From: Herpetosiphonaceae bacterium
GTDB lineage: Bacteria; Chloroflexota; Chloroflexia; Chloroflexales; Herpetosiphonaceae
Assembly (NCBI GenBank): GCA_013538855.1
Contig: JABXJS010000257.1
Span: 1-34,960, forward strand
DNA: 34,960 nucleotides
Reading direction: 5' to 3'
The stretch's first letter is position 1; each line of letters starts with the position of its first letter. The notes under the pieces were generated by a model that had not been told where the DNA came from, did no database searches, and saw only the letters and a list, made by a program, of their open reading frames with translations. Made by a program: the position numbers and the translations under genes. Positions 15,745 through 26,136 of this stretch are shown here, piece by piece.

Positions 15745-16117
15745 TGGCGAAATCCTTTCTGTAAACGGGAGAGGTGGCGAGTGGAACAAGGCGTAGTCCC
15801 GTAGCGACAACTGTGTGCTTAATATAAGGCTTACGTATTAACAGAATCTTTAGGTTTGCTGGCGAGAAAGCGCTGTAGCGTGCGCATCCCCGGGCGCATC
15901 AGCCTCACGCTGGAGCGTAGAGCAGCAGTGGGGCTGATCGACATAAAGAAACATATGTGCTAAAATTGTCATCTACCATAGGTATTGGCAAGAAGCGCAT
16001 ATGCTATACTGCTGGTACTGGTGCCCGCAACTATGTGACAATTCGGCGCTGATCGGCGGGCTGATCACCGTATTCAGACGCCCACAAGTGCGGAATGGGT
16101 TTCCGGCGGAGGTTTCT
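15745..16117. other. Divergent intergenic region, about 370 bases
   Basis: Separates the divergent amidase and pseudokinase genes, so it must hold both promoters. It is AT-rich around 15820-15850. A TATACT at 16005-16010 could be a -10 for the pseudokinase; the only nearby -35-like hexamer (TTGGCA, 15985-15990) is 14 bases away, which is short. A nested weak dyad spans 15877-15911 (TGCGC at 15881-15885 with GCGCA at 15894-15898). No gene is supported. Confidence 0.4.
16068..16117 (+). promoter_or_regulatory. Leader similar to that at 12396-12442
   Basis: It starts with the same CCGTATTC (16068-16075) at nearly the same distance from the start codon (50 versus 47 bases) and ends in GGGTTTCCGGCGGAGG before TTTCTATG. 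A short hairpin CGGAA (16091-16095) with TTCCG (16101-16105) sits just before the ribosome binding site. The corresponding place in the other leader also has a hairpin with different paired bases. No masking of GGAGG is evident here. Confidence 0.35.
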
Positions 16118-18016
16118 ATGAGTGCCGCATCCTCGCGAAAGGCGGCGGCTGCCCGACGCGACGACGACCACGAGCTACGTAACTATCGTTTAGAAGAACG
16201 CATCGGCCAGGACGAGCTGGCCACACTCTATCGCGCCCGCCACCTAACGCTGGATCGGCCCGTTGAAGTACATGTCCTACGCCGCTCGGACTGGGTCTCG
16301 GTAAGTCGATTTCAGCAGGCAGCGCGGCTCGCAGCGCGTCTCAAACACGATCATATTCTTCCAGTCCTAGACGCCGGCCACGATGATCGCTTTGGCTACT
16401 ACTTGGTGACGGCTCCGCTTGGCGGGCGCTTGCTCCAAGATGTGCTTGACGATGGTCCGCTGCCAGTGGCCGATGTTGTGCGCATTTTTTCCGATATTGC
16501 GCGCGCCCTCGATGCGATCCATGCCGAGCAGATCATCCACCGCGATATTCAGCCCGGCTCGATTATGGTCGTGGAGCAGCCTGTCGCGAGCGGGGTCGTG
16601 CGCCACGCCTTTCTCACCAACTTCAGCCTCGCCTGGAGTCCTGATGGACCCGATTTGTCGGAGCTTGAGGAGGCCGACTATCTGACGGCGTATGCGCCGC
16701 CAGAGCAAGATTTCAAGCAGAATGCCACTGCGCCAGCGCTGGATATCTATGCGCTTGGCGCGGTGCTCTACCATATGCTCACCGGCGAGGTGCCGCCGCC
16801 GCCGGGCCAGTCGCCGCGCCCGCTCGGTGAGTTTGATGCTGCGCTGGTGCCCGCCGATCGGATTCTGCGGCGCATGCTCTCGCCACAGGCCAACCTGCGC
16901 TACTCGACCGCCGGTCAGGCGGCGGCGGCGCTGCGCCAAGCGCTCCGCGATGTCGTTGATGTAGAGCCACCAGCGTCGCCGCTGGCCGCCCCCAGCGCTC
17001 CCGAGGTCGAGTGGCTGGAGAACCCGGTCGAAACAGTGCTCAACCAGTATGTCGACGCAGATTTTATCGACGAGGGGCGCACCTGGGCGCGTCAGCTGCA
17101 AGACCCGCTTGTGCTACGGCAAGTGCTTAACACCTGGAGTCGCAAAAGCATGCTGCGCCGCCGCAATATGGGCAATGTGCTGGTGCCCGATCAGGTGGTC
17201 AGCTATAACTTCTATATCTATGAGCTGCGCGCCTACTATGAGACGCGCACCACGCCGCAGCCGCGTGAGAAGCCGTACCAGGGCAGTCGATTAAGCGAGC
17301 GCCACTCCCCGCCTGGCGTGTGGCAGATCCCGCTGCCCGACCCGCACCCTTTCGATGAGGTGCGCCCGCAGGAGATGACGGTGCCGCACTCCGAGCGGGT
17401 GGAGATGTGCATGTACTGCGGCGGCAAGGGCGATATTAACTGCACACGCTGCCACGGCCGCGGCCTGATCGAGGAGCGCCAGCTTGTGACCAACCCCGAC
17501 GGCACGCGCGAGCGCCGCGTGGTCACGCTGGACTGCCCCGGCTGCGAGGGCGAGGGCCAGAGCGACTGCGAGCGCTGTCAGGGCACCGGCCAGCTGCTTA
17601 CGGAGGATGTCTTTACATGGTCGCGCTGGGGCAAGCTCTGGGATAACACCGATGATGAGACCGATCTGCCGCTGGCTGATATCCGTGCGCGCGCTGCGCC
17701 AGTGTACTCGGCCCAGATCAACGTGCGCGATCCGCACTGGCACGCGATCGCCCCGCTGCACGAGCTGCTGCAGGCGGCAGAGCAGGTGGACGAGGATCAG
17801 CAGACCCGCATCCTCTATGCTGAGCTGACGATCTCGGGCGCGCACATGAGCGAGGTGGACTATGGCGAGCGCGGCAAGAAGCATCGGCTCTACTTGATCG
17901 GCACCGAGCAGCCAACTATTCGCGGCGATCTCTCGATCTACGATTGGGAGCGCATCGGGATGTATAGCGTTGTGGTGCTGTGTGTGCTAGTGCTGGTGGC
18001 GATTCTGGTGCTGTAG
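16118..18016 (+). CDS. Pseudokinase fused to DnaJ-like zinc finger and C-terminal membrane anchor
   Basis: A 632-residue protein; ATG at 16118 with GGCGGAGG five bases upstream. Residues 20-280 have a Ser/Thr (PKN2-type) kinase fold, but the catalytic residues are changed. The glycine loop is degenerate (IGQDELATLY), the VAIK lysine position reads VEVHVL (H52), HRDxKxxN reads HRDIQPGSIM (141-150), and DFG reads NFS (168-170). It is therefore probably not a kinase, though APPEQ and the DIYALGAVLYHMLTG helix are well kept. Residues 431-490 hold four CxxC pairs in the CxxCxGxG style of DnaJ (CMYCGGKG, CTRCHGRG, CPGCEGEG, CERCQGTG), likely binding two zinc ions. A single hydrophobic helix (about 613-632) ends the protein, giving a tail-anchored form with the domains in the cytoplasm. 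The lipoprotein gene follows. A signalling or scaffold role is inferred. Confidence 0.82.
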   Translation: MSAASSRKAAAARRDDDHELRNYRLEERIGQDELATLYRARHLTLDRPVEVHVLRRSDWVSVSRFQQAARLAARLKHDHILPVLDAGHDDRFGYYLVTAPLGGRLLQDVLDDGPLPVADVVRIFSDIARALDAIHAEQIIHRDIQPGSIMVVEQPVASGVVRHAFLTNFSLAWSPDGPDLSELEEADYLTAYAPPEQDFKQNATAPALDIYALGAVLYHMLTGEVPPPPGQSPRPLGEFDAALVPADRILRRMLSPQANLRYSTAGQAAAALRQALRDVVDVEPPASPLAAPSAPEVEWLENPVETVLNQYVDADFIDEGRTWARQLQDPLVLRQVLNTWSRKSMLRRRNMGNVLVPDQVVSYNFYIYELRAYYETRTTPQPREKPYQGSRLSERHSPPGVWQIPLPDPHPFDEVRPQEMTVPHSERVEMCMYCGGKGDINCTRCHGRGLIEERQLVTNPDGTRERRVVTLDCPGCEGEGQSDCERCQGTGQLLTEDVFTWSRWGKLWDNTDDETDLPLADIRARAAPVYSAQINVRDPHWHAIAPLHELLQAAEQVDEDQQTRILYAELTISGAHMSEVDYGERGKKHRLYLIGTEQPTIRGDLSIYDWERIGMYSVVVLCVLVLVAILVL

Positions 18017-18129: not shown

Positions 18130-19011
18130 ATGCGTGTTCGATGGATCGGTATGGTGGTGTTGGTCAGTTTCCTCGCTGGCTGTGGCGGCAATGCGGCCAC
18201 GCCGACGCCAGCAACAACGGTGCAGGCGGTGCTGGCGGCCTCCACAATCGTGCTGGGGCCAAATCGGCTGCCGATTGGCCTAGTTGTTGATGGCACGCCC
18301 ATCAATGAGCCACAGGCCAAGGTTAATCTGCGCTTCTACTATCTTGATGGCGATCCAGCCCAGAAAAATAAGGTGGTCGGCGAGAGCGAGGCGACCTACT
18401 TCGGCCAGAATCTGCCGATCGGCGTGTACGTCGCCTATCCCGTATTCCCCAAGGCGGGCGCGTGGGCGGTCGATGTCGAGGCGACGCTGCCCGGCCAGCC
18501 CACAGCGGTAAGCCGCCTGCGGCTCGATGTCCAGCAGAGCGATCCGACGCCACCACTTGGCAGCCAGGCTGTCGCTGTGGACACACCAACAGTCGCTACA
18601 ACCGACGATCTGACGAAGATCACCTCGGACCCTGAGCCAAACCCAGCGCTGTACCAGATCAGCCTGGCCGATGCGCTGCAGCAGAATAAGCCGGTGGCTG
18701 TGCTGTTTGGCACGCCGGGCTTCTGCAAGACCGCCACGTGCGGGCCGAGCGTCAAGGTGCTGGGCCAGCTACAGGAGCGCTACGGCGACCGTATGAACTT
18801 CATCCATGTTGAGGTCTATCAGTACCCCTTCGGCGAGTCGTTCAAGGCCAATCCGCCGCACTTCTCCGAGGGCATGCAAGCCTGGGGCTTGCAGACCGAG
18901 CCGTGGCTCTTTTTGATCGACAGCCAGGGCGTTATTCGCGCCAAATACGAGGGCGGCATCACCATCGACGAGATGGCTCCAGTCGTCGAAGATCTGCTGG
19001 CGCAGTCGTAG
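18130..19011 (+). CDS. Lipoprotein with thioredoxin-like C-terminal domain
   Basis: A 293-residue exported protein. The N-terminus has a short basic region, a hydrophobic stretch and a lipobox LAGC (15-18), so lipid attachment at C18 is expected. It is followed by a Pro/Thr-rich spacer. Residues 35-140 form a beta-rich region. Residues 175-290 look like a thioredoxin fold: VAVLFGTPGFCKTATCGP carries C199 and C204, TEPWLFLID supplies the cis-proline loop, and GVIRAKYEG the following strand. The two cysteines are separated by four residues, not two, so ordinary CxxC thiol-disulfide chemistry is uncertain. A redox or copper-handling role outside the membrane is possible. AAGGA lies 12 bases upstream, a rather long spacing. 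Confidence 0.75.
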   Translation: MRVRWIGMVVLVSFLAGCGGNAATPTPATTVQAVLAASTIVLGPNRLPIGLVVDGTPINEPQAKVNLRFYYLDGDPAQKNKVVGESEATYFGQNLPIGVYVAYPVFPKAGAWAVDVEATLPGQPTAVSRLRLDVQQSDPTPPLGSQAVAVDTPTVATTDDLTKITSDPEPNPALYQISLADALQQNKPVAVLFGTPGFCKTATCGPSVKVLGQLQERYGDRMNFIHVEVYQYPFGESFKANPPHFSEGMQAWGLQTEPWLFLIDSQGVIRAKYEGGITIDEMAPVVEDLLAQS

Positions 19012-19138: not shown

Positions 19139-19840
19139 ATGGCAGCGTTTGAAGGTTTCTCGACCGAGAATCTGGTGCCGCTGCCCGCGGCGTTTTTCAC
19201 CGATGTACTACCACAGATCACCAACGCCGCCGAGCTACGGGTGACGTTGCACGTCTTTTGGGTGCTCAGTCGGCAACGTGGGCGGGCCAAGCGTGTGGCA
19301 TGGGATGAGCTTGTCAGCGACGAGGTTCTGGCCCGTAGCCTGCGCTCCGTTGCGCCAATGCGTCCGCCAATCGAGGTGTTGGAGGAGGGCATTGCGCTAG
19401 CGGTTGAGCGCGGCACGCTGCTGCATCTCGCGAGCACAGCCCCAGGGCGCATCGAGAGCTGGTATCTGGTTAATACAGCGGCGAACCGCGCCTGGGCCGA
19501 AAAACAAAGTGGCTCGCGTCTATCGCGTCCGCCCAGTGAGCCAGCGGACCGACCCTCGATCTTTAAACTCTACGAACAGAATATCGGCATGCTAACCCCG
19601 CTGCTGGTTGAGGAGCTGCGCGAAGCGACGCAGCACTATCCCTACGAGTGGATTGAGACCGCAGTTCGCGAAGCCGTGTTAATGAATATCCGCAACTGGC
19701 GTTACATACGCCGCATTCTAGAACGGTGGGAAGCTGATGGACGACAATCTGCGGCGAATCGACCTGAGCAATCTTTCGACCTTGATAAATACACAACCGG
19801 CAAGTACGCCGCCTTCTTCCGACGCGATGGCGACGAGTGA
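19139..19840 (+). CDS. DnaD-domain replication initiation protein
   Basis: A 233-residue protein. The N-terminal about 125 residues look like a winged-helix module with little sequence identity to known ones. Residues 140-205 match the DnaD/DnaB_2 domain: SIFKLYEQNIGMLTPLLVEEL, a central YPYEWIETAVREAV, and the diagnostic MNIRNWRYIRRILERW. In Firmicutes such proteins (DnaD, DnaB) bind and remodel origin DNA and help load the replicative helicase. The start has GGAGG six to seven bases upstream. Its last 104 bases also encode the start of the downstream DnaC-like gene in another frame. The pairing with a DnaC/DnaI-type ATPase supports a role in helicase loading or primosome assembly. Confidence 0.85.
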   Translation: MAAFEGFSTENLVPLPAAFFTDVLPQITNAAELRVTLHVFWVLSRQRGRAKRVAWDELVSDEVLARSLRSVAPMRPPIEVLEEGIALAVERGTLLHLASTAPGRIESWYLVNTAANRAWAEKQSGSRLSRPPSEPADRPSIFKLYEQNIGMLTPLLVEELREATQHYPYEWIETAVREAVLMNIRNWRYIRRILERWEADGRQSAANRPEQSFDLDKYTTGKYAAFFRRDGDE

Positions 19841-20549
19841 ACCTGCCTGTCCCAAGTGCAAAGATGCAGGCTACTACTGCTTAGATGTGCCAATTAGCGA
19901 CCCCAACTTCGGCCACTTGATCACCTGCGACTGCCGCTTGGAAGAGAAAGAGGCGCGGCGCAACCAAGAGCTGCGCAAGCTGAGCAATCTCGATGCGTTC
20001 GACGACAAGACCTTCGAGACCTTCAACCCAGATATCCCTGGCGTGCGCGCAGCCTACACCCGCTGCCGCGAGTACGCACGCAACCCACAGGGTTGGCTGT
20101 TTCTCTATGGCCAGTTTGGCTGCGGCAAAACACACCTGGCGGCGGCGATCGCCAATGAAGCGATCAATCGCGACATCCAGGTGATCTGGACGGTCGTGCC
20201 TGATCTGCTCGATCATCTGCGCTCGACATTTGGGCCGTCGTCGGAGGTGGCCTACGATCAGCGCTTTGAGACCATCCGCAACACCCCGCTGCTGATCTTA
20301 GACGACTTGGGCACCGAGAGCGCGACGCCCTGGGCGCGTGAAAAGTTGTTTCAAATCATCAATCACCGTTATAATCTGAAGCTACCAACGGTGATCACAT
20401 CCAACCGAGATCTTGATCAGATGGACCCACGCATTCGCTCTCGCTTAAATGATGTCGTCCTGTGCTATCCCGTGCTACTGAAGGCGGGCGACTTCCGGGC
20501 ATTAAGTGTCGAACAACGCTATGGCTCGTTTCGATCGTTTGGGCGCTGA
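19737..20549 (+). CDS. DnaC/DnaI-like helicase loader ATPase
   Basis: An AAA+ ATPase of 270 residues. A zinc-binding N-terminal part has C38, C41, C48, C64 and C66 (CPKCKDAGYYC, CDC), as seen in DnaI. The ATPase core shows Walker A GQFGCGKT (125-132), Walker B LLILDD (185-190), sensor-1 TSN (221-223) and the arginine-finger region RIRSRL (232-237). It belongs to the DnaC/DnaI/IstB group; the neighbouring DnaD-domain gene argues for a helicase loader and against a transposon IstB, and no transposase is nearby. The ATG at 19737 has GGTGGGA a few bases before it but overlaps the previous gene by 104 bases. An ATG at 19827 would reduce the overlap but has no ribosome binding site. Confidence 0.85.
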   Translation: MDDNLRRIDLSNLSTLINTQPASTPPSSDAMATSEPACPKCKDAGYYCLDVPISDPNFGHLITCDCRLEEKEARRNQELRKLSNLDAFDDKTFETFNPDIPGVRAAYTRCREYARNPQGWLFLYGQFGCGKTHLAAAIANEAINRDIQVIWTVVPDLLDHLRSTFGPSSEVAYDQRFETIRNTPLLILDDLGTESATPWAREKLFQIINHRYNLKLPTVITSNRDLDQMDPRIRSRLNDVVLCYPVLLKAGDFRALSVEQRYGSFRSFGR

Positions 20550-20580
20550 GCGCTAGGTTTGTGCAAGTTCGGAGGCTCCG

Positions 20581-23500
20581 ATGGGCAATCAGGCAATATT
20601 TGATCGTGCGATGGAGCAGCATCAGCAGGCCGCCCGTCAGGGTGACTGGGGCACTGCGCTCAAAGAGGGCGTGCGCGCCATGCAGGAGTTTCCGCAGCAT
20701 GAGCAGGCGCGGCTCGCTGTGGCAACGGCGCTGTTTCATAATAATAAGCTGCCGCAGGCGCTGCAGCTGTTCCGTGAACTCTACCAGGCCGATTCCGATA
20801 ACCTGGTGCTGTTGGAATATATCGCCCGTATTCAGCGTAAACAGGATCAGCTCGACGAGGCAATTCCGCTGTATATGCAGATCGCCGAGCGCTATGCGCA
20901 GCAGAAGCTGCTGCAGAAGGTCGTCCAAGCCTATCGCGAGGTGCTTGAGATGAACACGCAGCACGAGGAGGCGCGCATCCGCTTGGCGATGGTACTCGCC
21001 GAGTCCGGCGATAAACCTGGCGCGATCCGCGAGTTTATTGCGCTTGGCCAGCGCTACCTCGATGTCGGCGAGATCGACGCTGCCAAGGATGCAGTGCAAG
21101 AGGCGCTGAATGTCGATCCTTCTAGCCTATCGGCCCAGGACCTCCAGAAGCGCATCGCGGCGGCGCGTGCAGAGCAGGAGGCGGCCAATCGGCCCCAGGA
21201 CGATGGTCGCCTGCGCACCAAGGAAGAAATTGAGCGTGCCGCCGCACTGGCGATCGAGTATCAAAATAATGGCCGTCTTGAGGAGGCCGCAAAGCTCTAT
21301 GAGAAGCTGGTCGAGGCCCTGCCGGATCGTGCCGATGTGCGCTATAGCCTCGGCCTCATCTACGAGGAACTCGAGCGCCCCGATGATGCCCTGCGCCTGC
21401 TGGAGCAGGCCACGTACAATGATGAGTATGCGCTCTCTGCCCACTATGCCATGGGCAGCGTCTATCAGAAGATTGGCAAGCTCGAGCGCGCCGCCCAAGA
21501 GTTCGAGCAGGCGATTCGCTATGTTGACCTCCAGTCGGTCGGCAAGGAAGAGTCCGCCGACTTGATCGATATGTACGAGGCCACGGCAGCGATCTACCAG
21601 GAGCTTGGCGATATCGCCCGCGCCGCCTCGCTTTACTCAACACTGGCCGGGTTTTTCCAGGGCAAGCGCTGGGGGGCCGACCAGGCCACCCACTACAATA
21701 CCAAGGCCAAGGAGTTAACCGACCGCAGCATGATGTCGAAGCTGCGCATGCTTGGCACCGGCTTCTTGACCACCCCCCAATCAGAGCCAGAAGTCGCCGA
21801 GCCAGAGCCGGAGGCCAACACAGAGACCTGGGGGCGCATGCCGTCGATCACGGATTTCTTGCAGCCCAAGCGCCCGCCCTCACCTGAGGACGAGGCGGTT
21901 GCCCAGCTCGATAGCCTCTTAGCCGGCTCGATTATGACTACCGATGTCGATCCGCTCGATGTGCTGGCGGCCAATCTGCCCCCGCCTGAGGCCACGCAGT
22001 ACGCACCGCTTACGCCAATTGATATCGCTGGTCGCTCGGAGCGCGTGCAGCGGCTGGTCGAGGCCAGCGAACGCTACGCCGAGCAAAATTTGCTCTATGC
22101 GGCGATCGACGCCTGCCACGAGGTTATTCGCTACGATCAGGAGTTCTACCCAATTCACCTGCGCATGGCCGAGATCTTGGAGCGCATGGGCCGCGCCAGC
22201 GAATCGCTGTACAAGCTTAATCTGCTGATCGACACCTACAAGGCGCGCCACGAGAGCGAGCGCGCTGTCGATGTCTACTATCGGCTGATTGATCTCTCGT
22301 CGGACGCGACGGGCGTGCGCTCGGAGTTGGCTGAGCTGCTGCGCGAGCAGGGCCGCCACGCCGATGCCGCCGAACAGCTAGCCTGGGTCGCCAATCAGCA
22401 GTTCCGCATGGGCCAGACGATGAAGGCCCTAGAGCAGTTCCGCCGGGCGCTCGAGTGGGCACCAGCCAACGCAACTATTCGCAGTCAGTACGGCCAAGTG
22501 CTGCTGAAGCTGGAGCGTTGGGAGGCTGCGCTTGATGAGTTCCGCAAGGTGCTGCAGCAGTCGCCTGATGATCTGGTTGTGCTGGCGCAGGCCAATATCG
22601 CCCTGGCGATGCTCGGCGAGTACCCCGAGACGATCTGGGACTCGCTGGCAACCTTGATCGAGCGGCTGCCGAGCCAGCCAGGCGCGATCAACGATGTGCA
22701 GGCCGAGTACCGCTCGATCACCCTCATCGCTGATCGACCGATCTTGCACTTCCTGCTGGGGCTGGTGCAGCAGGCCGCTGGCATGAACTCGTCGGCGCTG
22801 CTCTCGTTTGAGCAGGCGCTGGAGCTGGTCGAGCTGGAGCCGGAGCCGCTGCTGCCCACGATCTTAATTCATCAGGCCATGGCCGATAGCCACATCGCCG
22901 ATGGCAACGCTGCGGCCTCGATTGAGCAGCTGCAGCGCATCGAGGCCCTACAGGCCACCGGCGGCGTGCCCAATGTGACCTCACGCCACACCTTTGCCAA
23001 GCCCTTCAACGAGGGCGAGCTGCAGCGCCGTCTCGCCGAAGCCTACGCTGCCGGCGATAATCTGGAGGGTGCGATTGTCGCCCTGCAGAAGGTGAAGCAG
23101 CTGCTGCCCTATGACCGCGCTGCATACACAAAGCTCGCCGATATCTACTTCCGCCAGGGCCGTCTGCCCGAGGCAATGGCACAGCTCGATGAGCTGGCGA
23201 CGTACTACGAGAACCAGAGCCAGCTTGATCGGGCGCTTGAGGTGCTGGCGAGCGCGCTCAAGCTGGCCCCCAACAACATCGCGATCAAGTCGCGCCACGC
23301 ACAGCTCCAGCTGCGCCGCGGCTACCTCGAGGAGGGCCTGGCAAGCCTCGACGAGCTGGCCGAGCTTCAGCGCAAGCAGGGCCAGCTGAAGGACGCTGTG
23401 CAGAGCATTCAGCAGGCTGCTGATGTGTACTGGACCTTGGGCCAGGTCGATAAGGCCGCCGAGCTGTACAACAAGATTGTGCACATCGCGCCGAACGACA

Positions 23501-23832
23501 CCGAGGCCCGCCAGCACCTCGTCAGCTTCAATATCTTGTCGCTGCGCACGAAGGAGGCGATTGAGCAGCTGCGCGAGATCGCACGCCTATCGATCCAGCA
23601 GCGCGACTTCGAAGAGGCGATCGCCTCGTATCACCAGGTTATTGCTCTTGATCAAAAAGACACCAACGCCTATGAAGCGCTGGCCGATGTGCTGATGCGC
23701 GTCAATGAGTATGGCCAGGCCGTCCGTGTCTATAAGCAGCTGTCGAAGCTGCTGCCTGGCGATGATCGCGTTGAGGCGCTGCAGAATGCAGCCCAGCGCA
23801 TGCTCGATCAGCAAGTCGCGTCAAATTCCTAA
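20581..23832 (+). CDS. Large tetratricopeptide-repeat protein
   Basis: A 1083-residue, almost entirely helical protein. TPR-type 34-residue repeats are seen in at least three blocks: about residues 1-190, about 215-365, and about 490-1075. Clear A-helix/B-helix signatures include GRLEEAAKLYEKLVEALPD, ADVRYSLGLIYEELERPDDA and GQVDKAAELYNKIVHIAPND. A linker at about 395-475 is Pro/Glu/Asp-rich. There is no signal peptide or membrane segment, so it is presumably a cytoplasmic scaffold; the binding partner cannot be read from sequence. It follows the DnaC-like gene by 31 bases. The ribosome binding site GGAG lies within a palindrome CGGAGGCTCCG directly before the ATG. It may be part of the same transcript as the replication genes. 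Confidence 0.88.
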   Translation: MGNQAIFDRAMEQHQQAARQGDWGTALKEGVRAMQEFPQHEQARLAVATALFHNNKLPQALQLFRELYQADSDNLVLLEYIARIQRKQDQLDEAIPLYMQIAERYAQQKLLQKVVQAYREVLEMNTQHEEARIRLAMVLAESGDKPGAIREFIALGQRYLDVGEIDAAKDAVQEALNVDPSSLSAQDLQKRIAAARAEQEAANRPQDDGRLRTKEEIERAAALAIEYQNNGRLEEAAKLYEKLVEALPDRADVRYSLGLIYEELERPDDALRLLEQATYNDEYALSAHYAMGSVYQKIGKLERAAQEFEQAIRYVDLQSVGKEESADLIDMYEATAAIYQELGDIARAASLYSTLAGFFQGKRWGADQATHYNTKAKELTDRSMMSKLRMLGTGFLTTPQSEPEVAEPEPEANTETWGRMPSITDFLQPKRPPSPEDEAVAQLDSLLAGSIMTTDVDPLDVLAANLPPPEATQYAPLTPIDIAGRSERVQRLVEASERYAEQNLLYAAIDACHEVIRYDQEFYPIHLRMAEILERMGRASESLYKLNLLIDTYKARHESERAVDVYYRLIDLSSDATGVRSELAELLREQGRHADAAEQLAWVANQQFRMGQTMKALEQFRRALEWAPANATIRSQYGQVLLKLERWEAALDEFRKVLQQSPDDLVVLAQANIALAMLGEYPETIWDSLATLIERLPSQPGAINDVQAEYRSITLIADRPILHFLLGLVQQAAGMNSSALLSFEQALELVELEPEPLLPTILIHQAMADSHIADGNAAASIEQLQRIEALQATGGVPNVTSRHTFAKPFNEGELQRRLAEAYAAGDNLEGAIVALQKVKQLLPYDRAAYTKLADIYFRQGRLPEAMAQLDELATYYENQSQLDRALEVLASALKLAPNNIAIKSRHAQLQLRRGYLEEGLASLDELAELQRKQGQLKDAVQSIQQAADVYWTLGQVDKAAELYNKIVHIAPNDTEARQHLVSFNILSLRTKEAIEQLREIARLSIQQRDFEEAIASYHQVIALDQKDTNAYEALADVLMRVNEYGQAVRVYKQLSKLLPGDDRVEALQNAAQRMLDQQVASNS

Positions 23833-23846
23833 GTAGTTGTACTCAT

Positions 23847-23877
23847 GCACGGCGGGCGACACGTATGCTCGCCGTGC
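23847..23877 (+). terminator. Hairpin between the TPR gene and cdaA
   Basis: GCACGGCG (23847-23854) pairs with CGCCGTGC (23870-23877), loop 15 bases. It sits in the 70-base gap, 14 bases after the TPR stop. No pure T run follows, so it may end transcription only partly. Confidence 0.45.
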
Positions 23878-23902
23878 TGTCGTTGTGTGAGGAATAGAAC
23901 CT

Positions 23903-24706
23903 GTGCCTAGCTTGCAACAGATCTGGGAGCGCCTGACACTGCTGTCGATCCTAGATATCGTGCTGGTCGCGCTGTTATTTTTCTGGCTGCTTGGGGTTAT
24001 CCGTGGAACGCGCGCGGTGCAGCTGTTGCGTGGAGTAGGCATCCTGGTGGTGATCGCGCTGCTGGCTGGTTCTATTCTGCCACTCACAACCATGCGCTGG
24101 CTGATGCGCGAGGTCGTCAGTCCTGTGCTGTTCGTCGGCATCCCGGTGCTGTTTCAGCCAGAGCTGCGCCGCGCCCTGGAGTCGCTCGGTCGCACCCGTG
24201 ACTGGTTCTCGCGCCCGTTTGGCCTCGCTAGCCACAGCGATCTAGAGGAGACGATCACCGTGATCGCACGCGCCTCGAAGCAGCTCTCGCAGCAGGGCAT
24301 CGGCGCACTCATGGTGATTGAGCGCGAGACGGGCCTGCAAGAGTACGCTGATCGCGGTGTTATTTTAGACTCGCGGCTGTCGGTGCCGCTGCTGGTGAAT
24401 ATTTTCTTTCCCAATGCGCCGCTCCACGACATGGCTGTGCTGGTGCGCGAAAATCGGATTCTCGCGGCCAACTGTGTGCTGCCGCTGAGCGAGAATGTTG
24501 TTGGCAGCACGCGCTATGGCACGCGCCACCGGGCGGCACTCGGGATCAGCGAGCAGTCCGACGCTATCGCCGTGGTGGTCTCCGAGGAAACCGGCAGTAT
24601 TTCGATCTCGCACGACGGGCGCATGGTGCGCCATCTCAGCGAGGAACGGCTGCGGCGCTTGCTGGCCTCCCTGTTGCGCGTAGAGCTTGAGGAGGAAGTT
24701 ACATGA
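23903..24706 (+). CDS. cdaA: Diadenylate cyclase CdaA (c-di-AMP synthase)
   Basis: Makes the second messenger cyclic di-AMP from two ATP. 267 residues, the usual CdaA size. Three N-terminal membrane helices (about 15-33, 41-59, 69-85) lead into the DAC domain (about 105-240). RHR (208-210, in TRHRAALGIS) is intact. The other signature, DGA in the common form PLHDGAVI, reads PLHDMAVLV (D176, M177, A178). The metal-binding aspartate is kept, but the glycine is methionine. Starts at a GTG eight bases after GAGGAA. It overlaps cdaR by four bases (ATGA). The CdaA-CdaR arrangement is widely conserved and supports the call. Activity of the M177 form is not certain. Confidence 0.92.
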   Translation: MPSLQQIWERLTLLSILDIVLVALLFFWLLGVIRGTRAVQLLRGVGILVVIALLAGSILPLTTMRWLMREVVSPVLFVGIPVLFQPELRRALESLGRTRDWFSRPFGLASHSDLEETITVIARASKQLSQQGIGALMVIERETGLQEYADRGVILDSRLSVPLLVNIFFPNAPLHDMAVLVRENRILAANCVLPLSENVVGSTRYGTRHRAALGISEQSDAIAVVVSEETGSISISHDGRMVRHLSEERLRRLLASLLRVELEEEVT

Positions 24707-26136
24707 AGCAGTCTGTCTATTCGACAAGCCTGCGTGCCTCAATTGCGATCGTGCTGGCGGCGGCGCTGTGGGTGTTTGTGAGTTTTACCGAGAATCCCCA
24801 GCAGAGCACGCCGCTTACCAACCTGCCCATCGCCGCCGAGGGCCTTGACCCGCAGCTGACGCTGGTTGATCCGGCGACAGGCGTGCCAATTCCTGTGCCT
24901 GACGCCGTGGTAAATGTGACGATGGTTGGGCCACGCAACTTGATCTCCACCTTCAGCAAGCAAAATGCCCAGCCGTTTGTTAATCTGGCTGGTCTCGGGC
25001 CAGGTATCTACCAGGTGCCGGTCAATGTGCGCGGTGTGCCGGCACGGCCAGAGGTGCGCTTTCAAAACATCACCCCTGAGCAGATCAGCGTCAATATCGA
25101 GCAGATTATCTCGGCGACAGTGCCGCTGACGATTACAACGATCGGCCAGCCGCCAACGAGCTATGAGGCCAGCGCGCCGATTGTAACAGTCAACTCGCAG
25201 CCGATTACCAATGTTGTGGTAACAGGCCCCAGCAGCCAGGTCGCACGTGTGATTGGCGGCGAGATCCAGATCGATCTGTCATCGCAAACGAGCAATATTC
25301 GCACACAGCGCGATGTGACGCCGATCGATGTGCTTGGGCGCACGGTCGAGGGCGTGCAGATTAAGCCAAGCACCGTCGAGGTGGCGATCAATATTCTGTC
25401 GTCGAGCGGCATCAAGCGCGTGCCGATTTTGTACCGCCTAGCCGCACCGCCGCCGCCAGGCTATGTGCCACAGATCAAGCTCGATCCTGAGCTTGTGTCG
25501 ATCATCGGCAGCTCGCGTATTTTGGCCCAAGTTGATGCGATTGAAACAGCGCCGATTGACCTGTCAGGAATTGATCCGGCCCAAGGTGTTGTAACGGCGA
25601 CGGTGGCGCTGCGCTTCCCGCCGGGCATTACCGCACGCGATCCCGGCATCGGCGAGCAGACAACGGCGCAGATTCGCCTGCTGCCAATCGACTTTCCCTT
25701 CAAGGTGGGCCTGCCGGTGGCAGCGCAAAATGTCGCTGCTGGCACGGTCGTGACAACTGATCCGCTGGTGATGGAGGTTGAGCTGCGCGGCCAGGCGGTG
25801 GCGCTCGAGCGGGTTGGCACACTCAGTGTGCAGGTTGATGTGGCTGGCCGCGGACCTGGCACCTACGCGCTGACGCCAACGCTTGCGCTGCCAGAGGGCA
25901 TCGAGCTGATCAGTGAGCTGCGGCCTGTTGTCGTGACCATTCGCTCGACGGCAACGCCAACACCGCTGCCAACGCCAACAGCGGCGGTGCCGCCGACACC
26001 GTCAGGCACGCTCCTGCCCACTATCACGCCGGAAGCTGAGCCAACGTCTGTGGTGTCACCAACGCTGCCAGCGCCAACACCGCCACCCCCAACGCAGCCG
26101 ATCTCGCCAACGGCGGCGGTCACGCCCACGCCCTAG
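24703..26136 (+). CDS. cdaR: YbbR-domain protein, regulator of CdaA (CdaR)
   Basis: A membrane-anchored extracytoplasmic regulator of the diadenylate cyclase. One N-terminal hydrophobic helix (about 10-27, ending in LWVFVSFTENP, a characteristic YbbR start) is followed by about four YbbR beta-rich repeats. Each has a motif like VTVNSQPITNVVVTGP, IKPSTVEVAINI or PELVSIIGSS. The last about 65 residues (from about 412) are a Thr/Pro-rich low-complexity tail of TPTP and PTPP units, looking like a flexible cell-wall spacer. The tail is longer than I expect for CdaR. Translationally coupled to cdaA through the ATGA overlap. In Firmicutes CdaR modulates CdaA through its external domains; the same is inferred here. 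Confidence 0.9.
   Translation: MKQSVYSTSLRASIAIVLAAALWVFVSFTENPQQSTPLTNLPIAAEGLDPQLTLVDPATGVPIPVPDAVVNVTMVGPRNLISTFSKQNAQPFVNLAGLGPGIYQVPVNVRGVPARPEVRFQNITPEQISVNIEQIISATVPLTITTIGQPPTSYEASAPIVTVNSQPITNVVVTGPSSQVARVIGGEIQIDLSSQTSNIRTQRDVTPIDVLGRTVEGVQIKPSTVEVAINILSSSGIKRVPILYRLAAPPPPGYVPQIKLDPELVSIIGSSRILAQVDAIETAPIDLSGIDPAQGVVTATVALRFPPGITARDPGIGEQTTAQIRLLPIDFPFKVGLPVAAQNVAAGTVVTTDPLVMEVELRGQAVALERVGTLSVQVDVAGRGPGTYALTPTLALPEGIELISELRPVVVTIRSTATPTPLPTPTAAVPPTPSGTLLPTITPEAEPTSVVSPTLPAPTPPPPTQPISPTAAVTPTP

Follow-up and report, generated by a model that had tools for sequence, protein, structure and literature searches.

The 34,960-nucleotide stretch of DNA from a Herpetosiphonaceae bacterium that we analysed (the window) encodes a predicted tail-anchored protein in which a pseudokinase domain is joined to a module bearing a putative DnaJ-type zinc finger. 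Judged by its pattern of conservation, the pseudokinase is old and under purifying selection, its domain having been retained for a job. Nearly every related bacterium has both this protein and a live-looking sister of the same build, which suggests, without proving it, that they form a regulator-enzyme pair. Our leading, if tentative, reading is of a membrane-anchored, non-catalytic regulator or scaffold that most likely acts on the active sister. It is a further and more speculative step to propose a dedicated pair of tail-anchored kinase and pseudokinase, joined through their zinc modules, with the live partner under the control of the dead one at the membrane.

The kinase-like part of the protein matches the Pfam Pkinase profile (PF00069) over residues 23-228, scoring 68.3 bits where the cut-off is 31.7, and its AF2 model is a complete and well-predicted kinase fold, the best PDB matches of which (Foldseek) are PknA (6b2q; E 5e-15, TM 0.78 by target), then PknB and PknI. 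The profile match and the predicted bilobal fold place it in the protein kinase superfamily. Its resemblance to Ser/Thr kinases of the PknB/StkP type extends to an alignment with StkP over 206 residues; unlike those kinases, however, the window protein lacks the beta3 Lys, the alphaC Glu, the second glycine-loop Gly and the DFG Asp, continues into a zinc module and tail anchor, and falls far below the PASTA-kinase cut-off. The features of the gene and its product are listed in Table 1.

Table 1. Features of the pseudokinase gene and its product, in window positions
Feature	Position	Strand	Basis or conservation
GGAGG, Shine-Dalgarno-like, 5 nt ahead of the ATG	16108..16112	+	Read in the sequence
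CDS, tail-anchored pseudokinase/zinc-module protein, 632 aa	16118..18016	+	Open frame, intact from the ATG at 16118 to the stop ending at 18016; orthologues start near the same point
Pseudokinase domain, residues ~20-285	16175..16972	+	Pfam PF00069; AF2 kinase fold
His52 replacing beta3 (VAIK) Lys	16271..16273	+	H30/S8/A7/R2/Q/Y/F in 50 orthologues; K 20/20 in paralogue
Ala68 replacing alphaC Glu	16319..16321	+	Ala 49/50, Ser 1/50 in orthologues; Glu 20/20 in paralogue
HRDIQ, residues 141-145, catalytic Asp143 kept, Lys replaced by Gln	16538..16552	+	Asp 50/50, Gln 45/50 in orthologues
NFS, residues 168-170, replacing DFG	16619..16627	+	First position N41/G7/S/M in 50 orthologues; D 20/20 in paralogue
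Scaffold motifs APPEQ (193-197) and DIYALG (209-214)	16694..16759	+	F-helix Asp and Gly 50/50; APE Glu 48/50
C-terminal half, residues 297-632: helical hairpin, beta module with the zinc finger inserted in it, anchor	17006..18013	+	AF2; profile matches
Four CxxCxGxG units, residues 431-491, DnaJ-type zinc finger	17408..17590	+	Motif; invariant Cys; DnaJA2 fold match
Tail-anchor membrane helix, residues 613-631	17954..18010	+	Hydropathy; position near C terminus

The initial annotation, made from the window's sequence, had described all three catalytic spots of the kinase fold as changed and the scaffold motifs as kept. The scaffold motifs are indeed retained, and the first part holds for the beta3 Lys and for DFG; at the HRD motif the replaced residue is the Lys of HRDxK, and the catalytic Asp143 is still in place. 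Three further losses had escaped that description, namely those of the second loop Gly (Asp32 here, and Asp or Glu in 50/50 orthologues), of the alphaC Glu (Ala68) and of the catalytic-loop Asn, which is Ser148 in the window copy and is kept in 33 of the 50. Among the residues that mark an active Ser/Thr kinase, the beta3 Lys, the alphaC Glu and the DFG Asp are thus missing in every orthologue and the HRD Asp is present in every one. Two of the three residues by which pseudokinases have been defined (loss of at least one of the beta3 Lys, HRD Asp and DFG Asp; PMC12599244) are gone, and at the beta3, alphaC, DFG and glycine-loop positions the 50 orthologues hold no conserved basic substitute.

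Because the HRD Asp is universally kept, some catalysis is conceivable, and the protein might then be a catalytically unusual enzyme that performs other chemistry or a metal-independent phosphotransfer. The Asn retained in 33 orthologues would fit such an activity, as would the example of the DLHK pseudokinases, which keep the HRD Asp and are modelled with alternative ATP binding (PMC12599244). We nevertheless regard an enzyme of this kind as improbable, given that the beta3 position varies freely, that the alphaC Glu has become Ala or Ser and the DFG Asp N, G, S or M, and that the second loop Gly is replaced throughout by an acidic residue.

A search of 60 relative genomes, together with follow-up stretches, yielded 49 further distinct orthologues from the same bacterial order (50 with the window copy), including those of Herpetosiphon aurantiacus (CP000875.1), H. 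geysericola, H. llansteffanensis and H. giganteus. In eleven orthologue pairs the dN/dS of the pseudokinase domain ranges from 0.009 to 0.13, and in most pairs it is no higher than that of the C-terminal half. The mean distance among 14 species is likewise smaller for the pseudokinase domain (0.54) than for the kinase domain of the paralogue (0.77) or for the protein's own C-terminal half (0.97). Conserved positions that are specific to the pseudokinase group and not common to the active group number 26 in the pseudokinase domain as against 7 in the C-terminal half; several of the 26, among them D187, Y188 and T190, lie in the activation segment. Local decay of a once-active kinase, to which the missing catalytic residues could in themselves point, is in our judgment virtually ruled out, as the same losses are found in 50 orthologues across one order, with dN/dS at 0.01-0.13 and an intact frame. 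The earlier proposal of an old pseudokinase, as opposed to decay, is therefore upheld.

The same succession of kinase domain, eight-Cys module and tail anchor recurs in a second group of proteins, with about 25-31% identity along the aligned length. None of the 20 sequences examined in this group has lost the beta3 Lys, alphaC Glu, HRD Asp, catalytic-loop Asn or DFG Asp, though HRDxK is replaced by HRDxS/A/T. The domain order, which the initial annotation had proposed to look for in other genomes, is found both in the 49 further orthologues and, in nearly every genome, in this intact-kinase paralogue, so that the dead copy is not the only protein to have it. A tree of the C-terminal part splits the pseudokinase and active groups at 100/100; the intact residues belong to a separate paralogue, not to close relatives of the window protein, where they would have spoken for local decay. 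For the kinase domains, forcing the pseudo and active groups together costs 0.15 log units (p-AU 0.51), which neither establishes nor rejects a common origin of the two. The window's own genome has a copy of the paralogue, with HRDVS for HRDxK (C90:5061-6836; L058:3795-5852, minus strand). That genome also encodes two divergent kinases with DLS for DFG (L182, C16:73884-74639; L183, C82:3926-4690), one of them with HCD for HRD, which place weakly beside the pseudokinase group in the kinase tree.

Among 60 genomes of the order, each at least 90% complete, about 54 contain both forms, most matches having been assigned on their score, not on a tree, with the pseudokinase of one genome (G031) seen as a fragment only. 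The exceptions are three genomes with only a kinase-less form (G010, G033, G054), two with only the pseudokinase (G039, G050) and one with only the active paralogue (G427); the missing partners of G039, G050 and G427 may be assembly gaps. No conserved operon joins the two genes at the loci that were compared, and the pseudokinase gene has no conserved neighbours except in near relatives. Those of the active paralogue vary by family and, read by eye, include a GalE-like epimerase, an EPSP-synthase-like protein and an FHA/winged-helix regulator. Several genomes of one family have, a few genes away from the active paralogue, a gene whose product, by eye, joins an FHA domain to a winged-helix regulator (L067:9127-9879, L061:8969-9634). 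The evolutionary rates of the pseudokinase and its active paralogue covary in some pairs (partial r 0.52-0.74), and an unrelated control kinase family gave an equally high value (0.75, one control gene).

One genus with small genomes (g6) amounts to a natural experiment. Four of its genomes (G010, G033 and G054, each at least 90% complete, and G042, 87% complete) encode a protein of 353 residues (398 as called in one) that corresponds to the C-terminal half alone and retains the tail anchor (L125:4754-5815, L127:2649-3845, L128:4031-5092, L129:3296-4357). This form nests inside the pseudokinase clade on a long branch (enclosing fork 95/92), and no remnants of a kinase domain were found adjoining the genes. 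The active paralogue went undetected in all four genomes. Where members of the same genus do have the active paralogue (in G029, G035 and G037 and, by a fragment, in G056), pseudokinase sequence has been kept; G039 is the exception, with a pseudokinase present and the paralogue undetected. The joint loss of pseudokinase domain and active paralogue was probably one evolutionary event. This pattern of presence and absence suggests that the pseudokinase domain is useful only where an active kinase is present; as it probably reflects a single event, the co-loss suggests such dependence without proving it.

The C-terminal half is confidently modelled (residues 297-632, AF2 mean pLDDT 93) as a helical hairpin, a long-stranded beta module split by the four CxxCxGxG units, and the membrane helix at the end. 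The four units start at residues 431, 442, 473 and 484, in agreement with the initial description, and their eight Cys are invariant in a 41-sequence alignment covering both paralogue groups. Just ahead of them is a Trp-Asp...Pro stretch that may resemble one preceding such units in animal SSUH2-type proteins, a tentative lead. Likeness to the zinc-finger region of DnaJ/Hsp40, to BSD2 and to anti-TRAP is seen in the CxxCxGxG-type units and in weak sequence and fold matches: the Pfam DnaJ zinc-finger profile scores 16.5 bits, below its cut-off of 32.7, DnaJ and BSD2 are weak sequence matches, and the fold match to DnaJA2 (7zhs; E 2.7e-4, TM 0.12) covers the zinc-finger region only. Unlike those proteins, the window protein is below the Pfam cut-offs and is without a J domain, no J-domain family appearing among Pfam matches at E up to 1; it thus lacks the J domain with HPD of a type I DnaJ/Hsp40, a class in which four CxxCxGxG units bind two zinc ions. 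The surrounding alpha/beta module has no credible or full-length fold match in the PDB, and may be a well-predicted fold without a solved relative. Noteworthy matches in a BFVD fold search were limited to zinc-finger or DnaJ-like proteins, and tblastn against plasmids returned a short zinc-finger match only, with in-frame stops close on either side.

The membrane helix, as had been described, is single. Residues 613-631 have a mean Kyte-Doolittle value of 3.0, windows before residue 590 reach at most 1.2, and no other hydrophobic segment is present. In every aligned row that reaches the end, the helix is followed by no more than 10 residues, and by sequence it has the form of a tail anchor, a sole membrane helix within about 30 residues of the C terminus.

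Relatives of the module occur more widely than the kinase fusion. Other families of the phylum yielded, in profile searches, proteins of about 460-715 residues that have no kinase but carry extra CxxC units (L116, L118, L121, L123 and others) and as read end in a polar tail; in those other orders of the class that were sampled, only short zinc-finger matches were seen. Because the kinase-less proteins match the module on both flanks of the zinc finger, the module would appear to be older or wider than its fusion to a kinase. It is here that the main rival to a regulatory role arises, in which the zinc/beta module does the work, bound to the membrane and serving without Hsp70 in assembly or client binding, and the pseudokinase domain only binds some other client, ligand or cell-envelope protein independently of the paralogue. 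In addition to these relatives, the anchored 353-residue form of genus g6 would suit such a role, and plant DnaJ-like zinc-finger proteins are described as participating in plastid biogenesis (PMC4806229) and an algal protein, ZnJ6, as thylakoid-membrane associated (PMC7865324). We consider it rather unlikely, however, in view of the missing J domain and the weak similarity to DnaJ, and of the presence of the same module in a paralogue with intact kinase motifs, on account of which coupling to phosphorylation looks ancestral. The initial annotation had offered a membrane-bound chaperone or a signal scaffold; the former was suggested by the zinc-finger motif only, and the latter is the better half of that proposal.

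The Cys units might instead be disulfide-forming or redox-active in concert with a thioredoxin-like lipoprotein encoded immediately downstream (18130-19011), which is similar to Thioredoxin_2 at a weak level below the cut-off. We think this very improbable: among the compared loci that neighbour is kept only in the near relative L033, and the C-terminal anchor predicts that the Cys units are cytoplasmic.

For a regulator or scaffold acting on the active sister, we envisage that the C-terminal helix would hold the obligate pseudokinase at the cytoplasmic face of the membrane. Phosphate transfer would have been lost, and binding of ATP-Mg in the usual mode is probably absent. The retained kinase scaffold would work through contacts between proteins, as a switch or a scaffold, and its most likely target is the active paralogue. 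Perhaps the two meet at the membrane through their common, putatively zinc-binding zinc/beta modules, and the pseudokinase domain may activate, restrain or target the active kinase. Motif loss, purifying selection, common architecture, near-universal co-occurrence and co-absence in one lineage support such a pair; the lack of a conserved operon, the exceptions G039, G050 and G427, the probably single co-loss, the non-specific rate covariation and the universally kept HRD Asp count against it. If the proposal is true, a dead partner would control a live kinase at the membrane as eukaryotic pseudokinases do. The conserved dead/live pair of one build is available in named Herpetosiphon strains and offers a natural system for studying whether a pseudokinase regulates a kinase in bacteria.

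Bacterial pseudokinases as such are already known, and experimentally they are largely unexplored (PMC12599244). The membrane pseudokinases MviN (ActPs3) and EssB/YukC share with the window protein degraded catalytic motifs and membrane association, but the window protein keeps the HRD Asp and an ordinary kinase scaffold, and theirs are other domains in other organisms. DLHK, with its degraded ATP and metal motifs, likewise keeps the HRD Asp, but it is without a membrane helix, is linked to helicase domains and has no zinc module in its description. DYD resembles the window protein in its membrane association and its missing alphaC Glu, but has Lys replaced by Arg, a DYD motif and, again, no zinc module as described. 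By their published descriptions, MviN/ActPs3, EssB, GLW, CP1, DYD and DLHK are all set apart from the present protein (PMC12599244). A 2025 review of bacterial pseudokinase families mentions neither Chloroflexi nor a zinc-linked family (PMC12599244). The claim that no characterised protein has this combination of domains also stood up to searches of the PDB by sequence and by fold, and among the open-licence literature we found no paper describing the order of kinase fold, zinc module and tail anchor. The family may be new, a prior description elsewhere being possible.

Two smaller observations concern other genes. The window's own genome encodes a 77-residue protein that consists almost entirely of CxxC zinc-finger units (C169; L131:3354-3587). 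In the window itself, the pseudokinase gene is followed by a one-strand run of genes (19139-26136) for a DnaD-like protein, a DnaC/IstB-like ATPase, a 1083-aa TPR protein, the di-AMP cyclase CdaA and a YbbR-like protein, the first three of which are kept in the near relative L033.
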